A stretch of 64,000 bases of DNA from an uncultured Oxalobacteraceae bacterium (GTDB lineage: Bacteria; Pseudomonadota; Gammaproteobacteria; Burkholderiales; Burkholderiaceae_D): NCBI GenBank assembly GCA_903862415.1, contig CAIOYD010000020.1:1-64000 (forward strand), in the 5' to 3' direction. This document shows positions 34,278 through 42,148 of the stretch, piece after piece. Each line of letters begins with the position of its first letter. Position 1 is the stretch's first letter. A model generated the notes under the pieces. It saw only the letters and a program-made list of their open reading frames with translations, was not told where the DNA came from and searched no databases. The position numbers and the translations under genes were made by a program.

Positions 34278-34331
34278 AATACTGGTGCCGACTGCAGGAC
34301 TTGAACCCGCCACCCCCTGATTACAAGTCAG
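34278..34331. repeat. att direct repeat (distal): 3' part of tRNA-Thr
   Basis: aatactggtgccgactgcaggacttgaacccgccaccccctgattacaagtcag, identical to 41453-41506. Confidence 0.95.
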
Positions 34332-34468
34332 ACTAAATACCCATTTATTGCCGTTGATTGATATATCAGCAAATCCCATAAAACAAATTTTTCCCATAAA
34401 AATCAATAACCTATTAGCATTTCACAATTCCGTTGTTTTTATTTCCGTTGATTGCTATACTCAAATTC

Positions 34469-34490
34469 GGGGTACACAGGGAGTACACGG
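34469..34490. repeat. paired GTACAC motifs, candidate integrase arm sites (left)
   Basis: ggggtacacagggagtacacgg; similar pair at 41370-41391. Confidence 0.5.
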
Positions 34491-34511
34491 ATTAACGAAC
34501 GGGGAAATTTA

Positions 34512-35843
34512 ATGGCAAAAGTGAAATTTACAGCGGGTAGGATTGCTGAATTTAGCGCGACCTCCGAAGCCATCCCGGCCTTCTTTTGGGACTCTGGCGC
34601 GCCCGGGCTAGGCATCCGAGTTACGCCAGCCGGTGCCAAGTCTTATATTTTTCAGGCCAAGCTCAACGGCAAAGTGATTCGAATCACTATCGGCGCACCG
34701 GACGCATGGGAACTGTCTGCAGCTCAAGCGGAAGCGCGCCGCCTAAAGGTAATTGTCGATAAAGGCGAAGACCCCCGGCAGGTACATGCCGACGAAATAC
34801 AGGCCAAGCAAACAGTGCGCGACCAGCATGCCGCCAAGAAAAACGCGGCTGAAAAGCAGGCCGCCCGCGAGTCCGTGACGGTTAACGAAGTCTGGACGGA
34901 ATATCTAAAGGCCAGAAAATCAAAATGGAGTAGCGGTCATTATGATGACCATATCGCCAATTCATCTGCCGGTGGGCAGGATAAAAAACGGGGAAAGGGT
35001 AAAACCATGCCCGGCGCACTTGCCGCCCTGCTTCCGGTCCGATTGGCTGACCTGACCAGTGGGCGCATCGCGTCTTGGCTTGAAACCGAATCGCTGACCC
35101 GTCCGACCGCCGCCGCTTTAAGTTACCGCATGTTGCGCGCATTTATCCGATGGACGGAAGAACAGCCGGACTATCAAGGCATTATTCCGAGCAACGCATA
35201 CAGCGCCAGAACAGTCCGCGACGTATTACCCAAACCCCAGACCAAAGAGGGAGACAGCTTACAGCGGGAGCAATTGCCGCTGTGGTTTGAGGCAGTACGG
35301 AAAATACCTAATCCGGTTGCCAGCGCCTATCTGCAGGCCCTGTTACTGACCGGTGCGCGCCGCGAAGAAATGGCGGCATTACGATGGGCTGACGTCGATT
35401 TTCAATGGAAGGGTTTGACCATCCACGACAAAATCGAAGGTATGCGCGTTATTCCTTTGACTCCATACCTTGCCAGTCTATTGGGTAACCTGCCGCGCCG
35501 GAATGAATGGGTTTTCAGCGCCCCGGATGCTGAAAGCGGCAGAATCACAGAACCAAGATATGCACATTCAACGGCCATCGAGATTGCCGGATTACCTCAC
35601 CTATCCATACATGGCCTACGCCGGTCATTCGGTACGCTCTGCGAATGGGTCGAAATGCCCGCCGGTATCTCAGCGCAAATCATGGGACACAAACCCAGCG
35701 CCATTGCTGAAAAACACTATCGCCGCCGCCCTTTAGACTTGCTGCGCGTCTGGCATGAAAAAATCGAAGCGTGGATTTTGGAACAGGCCGGAATAAAATT
35801 TGTGCCTGCCAAACCGAGAATGAGAGTTATTACCGCCGCCTGA
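34512..35843 (+). CDS. int: P4-type tyrosine integrase
   Basis: N-terminal arm-binding (DUF4102-like) FWDSGAPGLGIRVTPAGAKSYIFQAKLNGK; catalytic LLTGARREEMAALRW, HGLRRSFGTL, MGHKPSAIAEKHY. Confidence 0.95.
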   Translation: MAKVKFTAGRIAEFSATSEAIPAFFWDSGAPGLGIRVTPAGAKSYIFQAKLNGKVIRITIGAPDAWELSAAQAEARRLKVIVDKGEDPRQVHADEIQAKQTVRDQHAAKKNAAEKQAARESVTVNEVWTEYLKARKSKWSSGHYDDHIANSSAGGQDKKRGKGKTMPGALAALLPVRLADLTSGRIASWLETESLTRPTAAALSYRMLRAFIRWTEEQPDYQGIIPSNAYSARTVRDVLPKPQTKEGDSLQREQLPLWFEAVRKIPNPVASAYLQALLLTGARREEMAALRWADVDFQWKGLTIHDKIEGMRVIPLTPYLASLLGNLPRRNEWVFSAPDAESGRITEPRYAHSTAIEIAGLPHLSIHGLRRSFGTLCEWVEMPAGISAQIMGHKPSAIAEKHYRRRPLDLLRVWHEKIEAWILEQAGIKFVPAKPRMRVITAA

Positions 35844-35924
35844 CGTTTTAATGCAAAGAGAACCGCCCAAGCACGAACGTACCGAAGCGATTTAAAAATA
35901 AACCCGTTTAATAGGAAAATAACA

Positions 35925-36203
35925 GTGGATAGTTTTGACTTCACGCCCGACTCGCTCGATGGGTTTGCGCCGGTTTCCATCTTGGAAATCGAATGTGTTT
36001 CGAATGTTGCAAGCGAACAGGCGTCCATCATACGAACAATTTTCCGCGCCATTGCACGGCTAACCGAAAATAGCGAAATAAAGGGGCTATGCGAGCATGG
36101 GTCGCTACAAGCCGAAATGCTGGCCGGTGACCTTGACGCTTTCCGGGGGCAAGCTATGCGGGCGGCTTTGGCCGATACGAACATCAAAACATATAACTGT
36201 TAA
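35925..36203 (+). CDS. hypothetical protein of the element
   Basis: 92-aa ORF, no family recognised. Confidence 0.55.
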   Translation: MDSFDFTPDSLDGFAPVSILEIECVSNVASEQASIIRTIFRAIARLTENSEIKGLCEHGSLQAEMLAGDLDAFRGQAMRAALADTNIKTYNC

Positions 36204-36271
36204 AACCAGTAAAAGTTAAAAACATCAAACTATCCCGACGGGGAGAAAAGCAGGTTCCTTCGCCTGCCTGT

Positions 36272-37141
36272 TTGATGTCCAATTGCATGAAGGCGCTTGA
36301 AGGAGCCGGTTTGAAACTTTACCCATGGAATACGATTGATGAAGCGGCAAAATGGCTCACAACTGAACTTTCTGAATCGTTCTCTGAAAAGGATATTCTG
36401 ATACTTGGTGCGAATGCTGAACTGAAACTCAATGCGACCATCCCGACGGGCTGTTTTGCTATGCACTTTGAATCGAACCATAGCGGAGATATTTCAATCT
36501 CAGAAAAACCTATTGCAGAGCAATTTTTACCACTTACGAAGCAACAGTGCGAACAGATTGCCGGTTATTTTCCGTTGTATGGGTATGAAATTAGCATTGA
36601 AATTCCAAGTCCGGCTCTTGATGACTTTAAATTAAAATTCGGAACTGTTATTCCAATAGATACAAACGCTGTAACACTCACATCGCACGAATCTATAAGA
36701 GTATCCAGAGAGGATTTGCTTCATTATGCAAAAGTTCATTCTGTATTGGATGCCGACGCTAGTCCGCTTCCCGCCGAGATGCCTCCTAACGACGTCATCC
36801 CCGGCAAGTTGCCGAGAACCGGATGTGGCAAACTCGCAATTAAAGCAGCATTGCGGCCGACTGTTCCCTGTCCGATTAGCGCGAAAAATAAAATAACCGG
36901 TCGAACACCACCAATATTGACCGCCGAAATTAATGCTGCAAGTGAGGCGGCGCTGAAGCCAAGTGACCCCTCCAGCGTATGGGCAGAACTCACAAAAATG
37001 GCGGGCTGTCGAACTGGATGTCTTTTGGGTATCGACGGAAAAGATATTAAATATCAAGACGGCGAGGAAGTAAAATTTTTCAAAAAAAGAAGCCTGAATG
37101 AAAGAATGCGGCGCGCGTCAACGCGGGACGACGTGCAATGA
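36272..37141 (+). CDS. hypothetical element protein
   Basis: 289-aa ORF; C-terminus KYQDGEEVKFFKKRSLNERMRRAS; no confident family. Confidence 0.6.
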   Translation: MMSNCMKALEGAGLKLYPWNTIDEAAKWLTTELSESFSEKDILILGANAELKLNATIPTGCFAMHFESNHSGDISISEKPIAEQFLPLTKQQCEQIAGYFPLYGYEISIEIPSPALDDFKLKFGTVIPIDTNAVTLTSHESIRVSREDLLHYAKVHSVLDADASPLPAEMPPNDVIPGKLPRTGCGKLAIKAALRPTVPCPISAKNKITGRTPPILTAEINAASEAALKPSDPSSVWAELTKMAGCRTGCLLGIDGKDIKYQDGEEVKFFKKRSLNERMRRASTRDDVQ

Positions 37142-37216
37142 CGCGTCGAGACGTGTAACTATCGGATAAAGCAGCCGCTCCGGTAACCATCGGACCTTCA
37201 CAAACAACACGAAGGA

Positions 37217-37441
37217 ATGATGATGCTAACAGCTACCCAATACCCTGCACTGGCAGCAGAAACCCGCACCGCCATTGATACCAATGCCGCCGCCTTTCAC
37301 CTTGGCCGCAAACCCCAGACGCTCAGAAAATGGGCCTGCCATGAAGACGGCCCGCTCCGACCTATTCGCATCAATGCCCGCTTGGCTTGGGCTGTTGCTG
37401 ACATTAAGCGCATCCTGTCTGAAGGGAGCGCCACAAAATGA
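37217..37441 (+). CDS. small HTH DNA-binding protein, possible excisionase/AlpA-like regulator
   Basis: AIDTNAAAFHLGRKPQTLRKWACHEDGPLRPIRINARLAWAVADIKRIL. Confidence 0.65.
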   Translation: MMMLTATQYPALAAETRTAIDTNAAAFHLGRKPQTLRKWACHEDGPLRPIRINARLAWAVADIKRILSEGSATK

Positions 37442-37893
37442 AAAACCCAGCGAGCCTGCAAGCATCCTCTGGGTCTAAGCAATATTCATTTTTGCCTGAA
37501 CCAGAGCTTAACCTAATTTTCCCGACTGCTCAAACCCTGCCCGGACGAGCATTAGCACGAATGCTCAAAGGGGAACGCCTGACCCAGCCAAAGTTTGGCC
37601 TGAATTGCTGGCGACTGGCCGCGTATATCAAAGAATTGGAATATCTAAACTGGCCGATTGAAAAGGTGGATGTTCCCTGTCCGGCTGGCTTCGGTTCTGG
37701 CCGACCAATCCGCGAATACTGGCTGTCAAACGCAACGATTCAGAAGGCGCGAAGTCTCATGCCGCCAAATTACCGAAGCCGCTACGTCCGTTTTGAGCAG
37801 GGCAAACGGCAATGGTCTCAAAATAACCCCTCGGCAACGCCCGCCGAACGTGACGCGGCAATTCGTAAAATTGCTCAGAAATGCGGGGTCTAA
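37438..37893 (+). CDS. winged-helix-like phage protein
   Basis: LTQPKFGLNCWRLAAYIKELEYLNWPIEKVDVPC; overlaps upstream gene by 4 bp. Confidence 0.55.
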   Translation: MKNPASLQASSGSKQYSFLPEPELNLIFPTAQTLPGRALARMLKGERLTQPKFGLNCWRLAAYIKELEYLNWPIEKVDVPCPAGFGSGRPIREYWLSNATIQKARSLMPPNYRSRYVRFEQGKRQWSQNNPSATPAERDAAIRKIAQKCGV

Positions 37894-37894
37894 T

Positions 37895-38620
37895 ATGGCT
37901 CGCATTCGTTCAATAAAGACAGAGTTTTGGACTTCGGAACAAATTGTATCCTGCACCATTACGGCCAGACTGCTTTTCATCGGCATGTGGACTTTTTGCG
38001 ATGACAACGGAATTCATCCGGCTTCAGTAACCAGATTAAAACTTCAGGTCTTTCCCGCCGACTCGATTTCCAACTCTGAATTGCAAAATCTAATCGATGA
38101 ACTGGTCCGCGCCGATTTGCTGATTGAATATCAGGCAGGGATAAACCGTTACTGGCAGGTTACCGGATGGGCTAAACATCAGCGGATAGAAAAGCCAACA
38201 TTTAAGCATCCGACCCCACCAATCAAAGCGGAAGCACCAATAATTCCACAAGTACTCGACGACAATTCGACGACTACTCCGCGACTATTCGACAGCCCCT
38301 CTGGTACGGAGTGGAGTGGAGTGGAGAGTAATACATTGTCGGATAAATCCGACTGCCTTAATGTTCTCAACTACCTAAACTCAAAAATCGGGAGTCGCTT
38401 TCGTTCAGTACCTGCAAACTTGAAACTAATTTCTGCCAGACTGAAAGAAGGTGCGACAGTTGCGGACTGCAAATCTGTCATTGATGCAAAGGTCGCGGAA
38501 TGGTCTGAAGATTCCAAGCTTAAAAAATACCTACGACCAGCAACCCTGTTCAGCGCTGAAAATTTTGCTCAGTACGTTGGGCAGCTTGGTACTCAGGCGA
38601 AGGAGCAGCAATGGGAATGA
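37895..38620 (+). CDS. phage-type replication-initiation-like protein
   Basis: MARIRSIKTEFWTSEQIVSCTITARLLFIGMWTFCDDNGIHPASVTRLKLQVFPAD, resembling N-termini of phage replisome-organizer proteins. Confidence 0.6.
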   Translation: MARIRSIKTEFWTSEQIVSCTITARLLFIGMWTFCDDNGIHPASVTRLKLQVFPADSISNSELQNLIDELVRADLLIEYQAGINRYWQVTGWAKHQRIEKPTFKHPTPPIKAEAPIIPQVLDDNSTTTPRLFDSPSGTEWSGVESNTLSDKSDCLNVLNYLNSKIGSRFRSVPANLKLISARLKEGATVADCKSVIDAKVAEWSEDSKLKKYLRPATLFSAENFAQYVGQLGTQAKEQQWE

Positions 38621-39027
38621 ATTTACCACCCGGTGCCGGACAGATTCTTGCTATCCGAAAAACCGGGAAACGTCCTGCCGACCTAGTCATTGTTTCAAAC
38701 GTTGGCAAATTACCGTTTGAAAATCCAATTGTGACTGTGGGCGGCGTCCAAGACTACGACTGGCGTTGGCTCGTAGGCTTACCATTCGTTTTTTATGGCG
38801 ATGTTGACGCAAGCTTATTCACTCACCTTGAAAACATCTGCAAAGCCCTGAAAGGCCGCTTGCCAAAATCTTTATTAATTTGGGATGTAACCAGCAACGA
38901 GGGCTTTTCAGCGTGGTACCTACCCAAAGCCGAATCGATTCATTTATCGCAATCGATGTGGGAATGGGAGTTCAGCTTTCTGGAATGGACCGATTTTCAA
39001 AACAAAAATTTTATGGGAATTCAATGA
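38611..39027 (+). CDS. hypothetical protein in replication module
   Basis: 138-aa ORF overlapping both neighbours. Confidence 0.6.
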   Translation: MGMNLPPGAGQILAIRKTGKRPADLVIVSNVGKLPFENPIVTVGGVQDYDWRWLVGLPFVFYGDVDASLFTHLENICKALKGRLPKSLLIWDVTSNEGFSAWYLPKAESIHLSQSMWEWEFSFLEWTDFQNKNFMGIQ

Positions 39028-39914
39028 ACGTTATTAATGATGACATCGATTTTAGCGAGTACATGCAAGAAACCGAAAACCATAAAATTCGGTCGGCATG
39101 CGATTTCTTGCCTGAAACCATCGCGGCATTCTATCCGCCGCCGGACACTTCAAAGCCGCCTAAACCACTTTGGGAAAAAGCCAAAGGGAAGATAGCATTC
39201 CGACCCGGAGAGGTTTCGCTTTGGGCTGGCATTAACGGCCACGGCAAATCGATGATGCTTTCTCAGGTAGCACTGGACCTGCTTATTCAGAACCAGAAAA
39301 TACTGATTCTCTCGTTTGAGATGAAACCGGCGCGCCAGATGCAACGAATGAGCCGCCAAGCATATGCGAGGGATGTGCCGCCGGTCGAATTTCTGAGACA
39401 GTTTCATCAATGGACGGACGGAAAATTATGGATGTATGACCATACCGGCGCCGTGCATTGGCAGCAGGTCTTGGCCGTTTGCCGCTATGCCAGTGAGAAA
39501 TTCGGAATCACGCATTTCATTATCGATAGCATGATGAAGTGCGTTAAGGGCGACGACGATTACAACGCCCAGAAAGACTTTGTAAATGAGCTTTGCGGGT
39601 TTGCACAGGCCCGACTGGCGCACGTCCACTTGGTGCACCATGTCCGCAAGGGTGAGAGTGAGGACAAGACCCCCGGCAAATTCGATATTAAGGGAGCTGG
39701 AGCGATTACCGACCAAGTGGATAATGTTTTCACAGTTTGGCGCAATAAACGGGCCGAGCGCGAACAGTCAGGAGACCCAACAGCGATACTCAAATGTGAC
39801 AAGCAGCGCAACGGGGAATGGGAGGGCATGCTGGGTTTTTGGTTCCATCCTGATTCGATGCAGTACCTCGAAAAGATTAGCGGCATACCGATTCGATACA
39901 ATCTTACCGACTAA
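39024..39914 (+). CDS. RepA/DnaB-like helicase ATPase
   Basis: FRPGEVSLWAGINGHGKSMMLSQVALDLL (Walker A), KILILSFEMKPARQMQRM, HFIIDSMMKC (Walker B), HVHLVHHVRKGE. Confidence 0.85.
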   Translation: MNVINDDIDFSEYMQETENHKIRSACDFLPETIAAFYPPPDTSKPPKPLWEKAKGKIAFRPGEVSLWAGINGHGKSMMLSQVALDLLIQNQKILILSFEMKPARQMQRMSRQAYARDVPPVEFLRQFHQWTDGKLWMYDHTGAVHWQQVLAVCRYASEKFGITHFIIDSMMKCVKGDDDYNAQKDFVNELCGFAQARLAHVHLVHHVRKGESEDKTPGKFDIKGAGAITDQVDNVFTVWRNKRAEREQSGDPTAILKCDKQRNGEWEGMLGFWFHPDSMQYLEKISGIPIRYNLTD

Positions 39915-40022
39915 TTGTCGGTTTAATTTGGAACGCATCTGCTAATGCGTTATCACGTTGATGATTATTAACTACTGCGATAGAAGTACCTGCCTATACG
40001 CAAAACACACACAGGTCAAACA

Positions 40023-40484
40023 ATGACAAAATCGACTCTCACCCCTAAGCAATCTGCATTTATTGATGAATATCTTATCGACTTTAATGGGACTCAGGCC
40101 GCTATTCGTGCGGGCTATTCTCCCAAAACTGCTAATACTATCGCCGCTCAAAACTTAGCAAAACTTAGCATTCATTCCGAAATCAAAGAGCGATTAAATA
40201 AACGCGCTGAATCATGCGAGCGTAAAGCCCTCGACATCATCAAAGATTTGCAAGCCATTAAAGATAGTGCAATGCGGCTAATTTTTGATTCTCAGGGTAA
40301 CGAAGTAATGGCGCATCCACCCTCAGCCATTCGAGCGTTAGAGCTTGAAGGCAAATACATTGGAATGTTTACAGATAAATCTGCCGTCGATGTAACAACA
40401 GTAGGAAAGCCAATAGAGGCAGCGCCATTGATTAGCCCGGAAGAACTGGATGCGGCAATTAAACGTGCCCGAGAAGCGGTTTAA
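40023..40484 (+). CDS. terS: phage terminase small subunit
   Basis: LTPKQSAFIDEYLIDFNGTQAAIRAGYSPKTANTIAAQNLAKLSIHSEIKERL, Terminase_2-type HTH domain. Confidence 0.88.
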   Translation: MTKSTLTPKQSAFIDEYLIDFNGTQAAIRAGYSPKTANTIAAQNLAKLSIHSEIKERLNKRAESCERKALDIIKDLQAIKDSAMRLIFDSQGNEVMAHPPSAIRALELEGKYIGMFTDKSAVDVTTVGKPIEAAPLISPEELDAAIKRAREAV

Positions 40485-40672
40485 TGAATTTAAGTCTATT
40501 CAAGCAAGAGGAGGGTAAGTAATTAAAAGCAAACATTCAAAACTAGACATTTAATACACTTTAGCGCTTCGAATGACCTATTTAGGGCATATACAGAATT
40601 CAATTTCGACCTCATACTCAGATGGCATTTATCCAAAATTTTTAAATCAACCTAAAAAATACAAGGCAAAAA

Positions 40673-41266
40673 ATGGCGCTTATAAAATGCAAGGACTGCG
40701 GAAACGACGTGAGTACCGATGCAAAGAATTGTCCGAAATGCGGGGCAAACATCGTTTTACCAAAACCTCCCAAAAAGCCCGCCTCACCAATATTAAAATA
40801 CATTCTCGGCTTTATTGTTGCTGGCTCAATAATCACTATGGCGATGAATGGAAATAAGCAGAGGGAAGCGGAAAAAGCAGACCAAGAACAATTAGCCTCA
40901 ATGCCGCAGGCGCAGAGAGACGCGGTTTTAGCGCAGAGAGCGGCGCAGAAAAAGGCAGACGAGGCCAAGGTGGCAGCGGATGCCAAAGCGAAGGCAGACA
41001 GCGAAGCAATGTTGCACGATATAGGATTGGCAGAAGTAACCTGTCAAATGCTTGCAGAGAAAAGAGCCAACGACCCGGCATCAATCGAATGGTTAAGGCA
41101 GGAGCGGAAATTTGCGTTCACCTCGAAAGACCATATGAAAGCAACGTCGTTTCAGCCGATGCGGGCTAAAAATGCGATGGGAGCGCTGATATTAACTTCT
41201 GTAAAATGCGATTTAATAAAGAGCGGGAATGATTGGCAGGTCAGTAAATTTGATGAGCTGCATTAG
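40673..41266 (+). CDS. zinc-ribbon membrane protein
   Basis: IKCKDCGNDVSTDAKNCPKCGANI zinc ribbon followed by a TM segment and a coiled, Ala/Lys-rich region. Confidence 0.7.
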   Translation: MALIKCKDCGNDVSTDAKNCPKCGANIVLPKPPKKPASPILKYILGFIVAGSIITMAMNGNKQREAEKADQEQLASMPQAQRDAVLAQRAAQKKADEAKVAADAKAKADSEAMLHDIGLAEVTCQMLAEKRANDPASIEWLRQERKFAFTSKDHMKATSFQPMRAKNAMGALILTSVKCDLIKSGNDWQVSKFDELH

Positions 41267-41304
41267 CGGTTTATAGTTGGATTAAAATTGCAAGCCTGAA
41301 AAAT

Positions 41305-41335
41305 AAAACCGCTCGCAGATTATTCGAGCGGTTTT
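41305..41335 (+). terminator. rho-independent terminator at end of element
   Basis: aaaaccgctcg-cagattatt-cgagcggtttt followed by tt. Confidence 0.85.
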
Positions 41336-41369
41336 TTATCGCCCGTGAATCACGGCTAAATATAAAATT

Positions 41370-41391
41370 GGGGTACACAACGGGTACACGG
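41370..41391. repeat. paired GTACAC motifs, candidate integrase arm sites (right)
   Basis: ggggtacacaacgggtacacgg. Confidence 0.5.
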
Positions 41392-41452
41392 AGCCTATAC
41401 AGGCCCTAGAAATGACAAAGGGTTAGTGCCTACTATGACGCTAACCCTTTTA

Positions 41453-41506
41453 AATACTGGTGCCGACTGCAGGACTTGAACCCGCCACCCCCTGATTACA
41501 AGTCAG
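41453..41506. repeat. att direct repeat (tRNA-proximal)
   Basis: 54-bp exact match to 34278-34331. Confidence 0.95.
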
Positions 41507-41533
41507 GTGCTCTACCAGATGAGCTAAGTCGGC
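41458..41533 (-). tRNA. tRNA-Thr (anticodon TGT), CCA encoded
   Basis: GCCGACTTAGCTCATCTGGTAGAGCACCTGACTTGTAATCAGGGGGTGGCGGGTTCAAGTCCTGCAGTCGGCACCA folds as a cloverleaf. Confidence 0.95.
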
Positions 41534-42025: not shown

Positions 42026-42148
42026 AATTTTTCTGCCTTATTTCTGCCTTATTTCTGCCTGCTTACTGCCTGTTACTGCGGTATTGACTTAACAAAACTG
42101 GCAACCCGGTCTGGAAATCTGCGGGCTGCCAACTTTTATCGTGATCGA

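Follow-up and report, generated by a model that had tools for sequence, protein, structure and literature searches.

We analysed a 64,000-nucleotide stretch of DNA from an uncultured Oxalobacteraceae bacterium (NCBI GenBank assembly GCA_903862415.1, contig CAIOYD010000020.1, positions 1 to 64,000 of the forward strand; the whole stretch is called the window here) and found that a 7,175-bp element integrated at its tRNA-Thr gene is probably a phage satellite resembling phage-inducible chromosomal islands (PICIs), from an island lineage of the Burkholderiales. An original prediction, made from the letters of the window, had proposed such a satellite, and this emerged as the best-supported reading, given an island-specific integrase, an inward-pointing integrase gene with an AlpA/Xis-like gene, the existence of sister islands, and lone terminase small subunits (TerS) elsewhere. 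The element likely works as a PICI-like satellite with TerS-based packaging, and we provisionally count it among the Gram-negative PICIs.

Borders and gene content of the element

The element is bounded by an exact 54-bp direct repeat (attL, 34278-34331; attR, 41453-41506; neither is assigned a strand), and the spacing of 7175 between the copies defines the unit. The repeat is the 3' part of tRNA-Thr, because the integration target, an intact tRNA-Thr(TGT) (ARAGORN, RF00005), spans 41458-41533 on the - strand; both the coordinates and the position at the 3' end of this gene are those originally predicted. In a same-genus genome (G003) we found the empty site, where the left terminator that flanks attL joins an uninterrupted tRNA-Thr directly. 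The tRNA is likewise intact in three further same-genus genomes, with different left neighbours. The G+C content of the element is 48%, compared to 51-53% in the flanks. Each end of the element also carries a doubled GTACAC with 11-bp spacing on the + strand, namely GGGGTACACAGGGAGTACACGGA at 34469-34491 on the left (word starts 34472 and 34483) and GGGGTACACAACGGGTACACGGA at 41370-41392 on the right (41373 and 41384). None of 500 shuffles gave a shared doubled word of such spacing at both ends and, together with the empty site, this bears out that the insertion is not a chance reading. Five related islands (L050, L057, L046, L047, and L014) have doubled words of their own with 11-bp spacing at both ends (shuffled ends, 0-1 of 500), and related motifs were seen, by eye only, in L091 (CTACAC on the left, GGTTACAT on the right). 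These doubled motifs are candidate arm sites of the integrase.

As predicted, the open reading frame (ORF) list places every element gene on the + strand. The first gene encodes an inward-pointing tyrosine integrase (443 aa, 34512-35843; PF00589, 9.3e-11; arm domain PF13356, 2.2e-10), in whose family alignment the catalytic R/H/R/H/Y columns are invariant. The replication module comprises a RepO-like initiator (241 aa, 37895-38620; PF09524, 2.2e-26; phrog_428, 2.1e-32) and a DnaB/RecA-type ATPase (296 aa, 39024-39914; PF13481, 4.1e-15; PF03796, 5.4e-11; phrog_5482, 1.4e-65), and a domain search found no primase domain in the element. Downstream lies the lone TerS (153 aa, 40023-40484; PF03592, 9.8e-25; phrog_51, 7.7e-32). 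The original prediction named inactivating changes in this gene as grounds for rejecting it; the protein is full-length, and its residues 3-125 align with the solved terminase small subunit 3zqp. The predicted identities of integrase, initiator, ATPase, and TerS are clear from their domain and profile matches.

Between integrase and initiator lies a 74-aa winged helix-turn-helix (HTH) protein (37217-37441) that matches phrog_66 (1.9e-4). Its fold model shows a winged helix with a beta hairpin (predicted local distance difference test score 83), and its best PDB neighbours include BldC, the excisionase RdfS, and the Xis of mycobacteriophage Pukovnik, all of them weak matches (best E 0.0098). 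From the profile match, the modelled fold, and the position of the gene, we consider an AlpA/Xis role likely. The remaining genes encode orf2 (92 aa, 35925-36203; no assigned function), which is kept in sister islands (relatives in L017, L053, and L014); orf3 (about 276 aa, 36311-37141, from an inferred TTG start, with 36275 as the alternative), a dynamic-zone gene with relatives in L046, L057, and L063; orf5 (151 aa, 37438-37893; no assigned function), conserved ahead of the initiator across related loci; orf7 (138 aa, 38611-39027), a conserved partner in the replication module that precedes the ATPase in many loci; and a 197-aa zinc-ribbon protein (40673-41266; PF13248, 4.7e-5; phrog_14275, 6.3e-14), one stretch of which is hydrophobic and membrane-like. 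The gene list of the original prediction thus stood for the integrase, initiator, ATPase, TerS, and zinc-ribbon protein, and it had missed orf7 and a structured RNA at 36223-36293.

Pfam and PHROG profile searches detected no large terminase (TerL), portal, capsid, protease, or tail gene among the element ORFs, as had been claimed, and no relaxase or transfer gene among the element proteins. The predicted lack of a divergent master repressor was also upheld, since the ORFs adjoining the early genes include no convincing divergent (Stl-type) regulator gene; a candidate RNA regulator is present instead. PADLOC found no defence gene in the six window proteins tried, and promoter and terminator scans gave signals at or below chance level.

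Sister islands in the Burkholderiales

Relatives of the integrase with 49-66% identity occur in chromosomal islands of many genomes of the order, and none above 29% identity was found in 50,697 phage records, which points to an island-specific clade. Five islands with related integrases are bounded by repeats: L050 (tRNA-Arg, 7.4 kb), L057 (tRNA-Met, 7.9 kb), L046 (tRNA-Arg, 10.6 kb), L047 (8.7 kb), and L091 of Undibacterium (tRNA-His, 11.3 kb). Searching the genomes with the ATPase added Herminiimonas (L092), Massilia (L095), and others; the host shares its family with L017 (genome G078). The sister islands have in common the order integrase, AlpA/Xis-like HTH, RepO-like initiator, and ATPase, and they vary in their late or defence genes. 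The search for the int-rep-terS block elsewhere, as suggested in the original prediction, succeeded in part: the module recurs in intact islands that measure 7-11 kb and lie at other tRNAs, and the exact set was not found again.

The cargo 3' of the ATPase is diverse. In L137 it includes a tail-protein relative and a TerS from a different family (phrog_309, 1.6e-42); in L107 it includes a baseplate hub (phrog_177, 2e-102) as well as a tape-measure relative (phrog_2276, 2.4e-45); and in L017 it includes an SLT transglycosylase. By sequence, L014 has near-identical counterparts of the baseplate hub and tape-measure genes of L107. The cargo of L091 encodes a GajB-like helicase, and that of L104 encodes a ZacC-like protein. 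A lone TerS recurs in three other island-like loci, namely L137, L275, and L199.

We also observed that L014 and L107 are compact, with the baseplate hub and tape-measure relative and no head genes seen, and it is possible that they are tail-modifying satellites. In L095, L096, L017, L240, and L255, large proteins of no known family (about 440-1500 aa) follow the replication genes, and in L017 the large protein adjoins the SLT domain; these are possibly virion ejection proteins.

The int-alpA RNA and its loop pairing

The structured RNA of the element (36223-36293, + strand) belongs to the int-alpA family RF02996 (61.5 bits against a gathering threshold of 35.8, E 2.9e-11 with the full model). 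Its loop 2 (UUCCUUCG, 36255-36262) is complementary to two sequences on the same strand: the 3' tail of the RNA (AUGAAGG, 36287-36293) and, in its sequence and as a pattern across islands, the Shine-Dalgarno sequence of orf3 (GAAGGAG, 36299-36305). Among 42 parsed sequences, the pairing of loop 2 with its own tail beat all 2,000 reassignments. A second set comprised 40 distinct-loop sequences that were retrieved from viral contigs with a pattern leaving out both loop and tail; here the longest Watson-Crick run averaged 5.3 versus 3.36 (z 12.8). Many loop and tail motifs are purine or pyrimidine runs and, because of this, the reversed-tail control also exceeded shuffles (z 5.0). Individual pairs are very diverse: CACTCAA, for instance, goes with TTGAGTG, whereas CACCGA goes with TCGGTG. 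Loop 2 also paired with the Shine-Dalgarno region better than when reassigned (z 6.4; reversed-sequence control 3.4). In 26 of 46 loci the sequence around the Shine-Dalgarno can form a hairpin with 4 or more Watson-Crick pairs, followed by a start codon (shuffled mean 3.2, maximum 7); the hairpin of the window is imperfect and fell short of this test. It is important to point out that sequence relatedness inflates all of these RNA shuffle tests. We judge the loop 2-tail pairing to be real, on the evidence of covariation, and the loop 2-Shine-Dalgarno pairing to be only likely. The loop-tail covariation suggests a pseudoknot that is absent from the Rfam structure line, and the covariation of the RNA suggests a translational switch of the next gene.

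The same RNA is present in islands L057, L095, L017, L050, and L014, and of 399 genomes from the order, 80 contain an RF02996 match above the cut-off. In a hand count of 40 int-alpA loci, an integrase gene preceded the RNA on its own strand in 36, and one end of the island carried a tRNA or tmRNA in 26. TerL (phrog_2) lies near the RNA in only one of the 40, which is a lower bound because several of the contigs end soon after the RNA. That locus, L253 (G460:C32, Burkholderiales), carries capsid (PF05065), protease (PF04586), portal (PF04860), TerS (PF05119), TerL (PF20441/PF03354), and AlpA (PF05930) genes together with the RNA, and by this gene content it is a capsid-forming PICI. In Escherichia coli, 197 of 5,426 genomes contain a match. 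Two E. coli islands that we inspected adjoin yicC and carry genes for an integrase, an HTH protein, AntA/AntB, an Icd-like protein, a P4-type primase, and PerC. A single blastn query, a weak negative, found no int-alpA RNA in phage records. A 20-nt pattern of the int-alpA core occurs in 61 viral contigs; an HK97-type capsid is encoded on 16 of them, in most cases along with a portal and a protease. As a separate observation, L275 (G379:C12) is an int-alpA island at tRNA-Leu that ends in a lone PF03592 TerS and has a 17-nt candidate repeat only.

Short structured immunity RNAs that lie near early genes and act by base pairing are known from phages P1 and P7 (the C4 antisense RNA) and from P4 (the CI RNA). 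The P4 CI RNA is also covered in PMC10111431. The int-alpA RNA is a separate Rfam family, and we found no functional study of it in the literature looked at. We tentatively propose that many Gram-negative PICI-like satellites may be silenced by this RNA, which would act as an immunity switch in the manner of C4 or CI: loop 2 would pair either with the tail or with the Shine-Dalgarno sequence of the first dynamic-zone gene. The element may then represent a TerS-carrying lineage under this control.

Satellite reading, alternatives, and known systems

An intact 7,175-bp unit with attL and attR, candidate arm sites, an integrase, an Xis/AlpA-like factor, a replication module, and a lone TerS support the interpretation as a satellite. 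We propose that the element would stay silent in tRNA-Thr and that the int-alpA RNA would account for at least part of this silencing: loop 2 of the RNA would switch orf3 translation by pairing with its own tail or with the orf3 Shine-Dalgarno sequence. An entering helper phage would lift this silencing, upon which the AlpA-like protein and the integrase would excise the element as a circle, and the RepO-like initiator and ATPase would replicate it. The island TerS would then join the helper TerL and steer island DNA into helper particles, probably by headful packaging as for the TerS of Staphylococcus aureus pathogenicity islands (SaPIs), and in the next cell the integrase would insert the island into tRNA-Thr.

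Several observations weigh against this interpretation. A helper phage, a packaging site, excision, and transfer are so far only predicted; the 74-aa HTH protein was not matched by Pfam AlpA and its fold matches are weak; loop 2 pairs with the Shine-Dalgarno region only moderately above the reversed control; TerL occurs on some of the IMG/VR contigs that have the int-alpA core, so that the RNA is not exclusive to TerL-less satellites; and the exact int-rep-TerS set did not turn up in any further element. Moreover, the family of the replication ATPase is common to true phages, from which we derive a phage origin of the replication module. When the whole element was searched against phages at the nucleotide level, the matches were confined to tRNAs, apart from a 68% piece within the ATPase gene. 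The co-resident helper prophage with TerL envisaged in the original prediction did not materialise: in the host genome, a draft of 78 contigs searched with these TerL, portal, and TerS models only, we found no TerL, no portal, and no second TerS of the same family, and the sole phrog_2 match was rejected as TerL because its sequence is that of RecD. With neither TerL nor portal detected in the host genome, any helper would be external; a resident helper of a type outside the models tried is conceivable.

The missing helper would agree with an integrative island that spreads independently of helpers, by transformation, conjugation, or generalised transduction, with TerS as a passenger, as would sister islands that lack TerS and carry genes for restriction or defence. 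We consider this improbable, however, because the searches revealed no gene for a relaxase or for transfer, lone TerS genes of different families in several islands argue for selection, and the tail and SLT genes of sister islands point to interaction with phages. A reduced prophage, that is, a temperate phage stripped of all late genes after TerS, would account for a gene order (int, rep, TerS) like that of a phage early region and for an ATPase that complete phages share, some of them with TerS and TerL a few kb downstream (L012), but it is very unlikely given the absence of the integrase clade from phage records above 29% identity, the inward integrase, the intact att and arm sites, the open reading frames of all named genes, the combination of this module with other cargo in comparably sized sister islands, and an int-alpA RNA held in common with a capsid-forming PICI.

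A PICI-like satellite also fits the anatomy of known systems. In Gram-negative PICIs the inward integrase gene is followed by an AlpA-like gene, a layout not reported for prophages, and the late zone is variable (PMC10111431), which the differing late genes of the sister islands appear to fit. Like Gram-negative PICIs of the EcCICFT073 type (PMC6092414; PMC10111431), the element has its genes on one strand, with an inward integrase, a putative AlpA-like factor, and dynamic, replication, and small late zones; it also has a specific att site with flanking repeats and lacks a full set of head, tail, or lysis genes. A terS gene occurs in some of these PICIs and no protein repressor is known for them, and the element is alike in both respects (PMC6092414; PMC10111431). 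It differs in its RepO-like initiator and DnaB-like ATPase, where PICIs use a P4-type primase, in an AlpA-like gene that follows the dynamic-zone genes, in its Burkholderiales host, and in its island-specific integrase clade. Judged by sequence, it thus appears to have the anatomical features of a Gram-negative PICI, with AlpA and primase represented by analogues only.

Three other satellite types were rejected. SaPIs and other Gram-positive PICIs with a terS gene (PMC6092414) share the lone TerS, which in SaPIs redirects headful packaging, but the element has no Stl-type divergent repressor and differs in integrase, replication genes, and host. The capsid-forming PICI L253 shares the integrase, the int-alpA RNA, and the AlpA module, whereas of the capsid, protease, portal, TerS, and TerL block the element holds only TerS. 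The phage-inducible chromosomal minimalist islands (PICMIs) of Vibrionaceae (PMC10803314) are likewise very small and have an integrase, an AlpA-like gene, and a replication gene, but they lack terS, encode a DUF3987/DUF5906 primase, and lie at fis, none of which applies to the element.

These findings would widen the range of PICI-like satellites to include a lineage of the Burkholderiales whose replication module differs and whose late genes are interchangeable. They also connect an orphan Rfam RNA with satellite-like islands, capsid-forming PICIs among them; covariation pinpoints the bases involved, and RF02996 becomes a sequence marker for finding more such satellites. Outside the element, the window contains short tandem copies of TTTCTGCCTTA at 42030-42071, upstream of an sspB-like gene.

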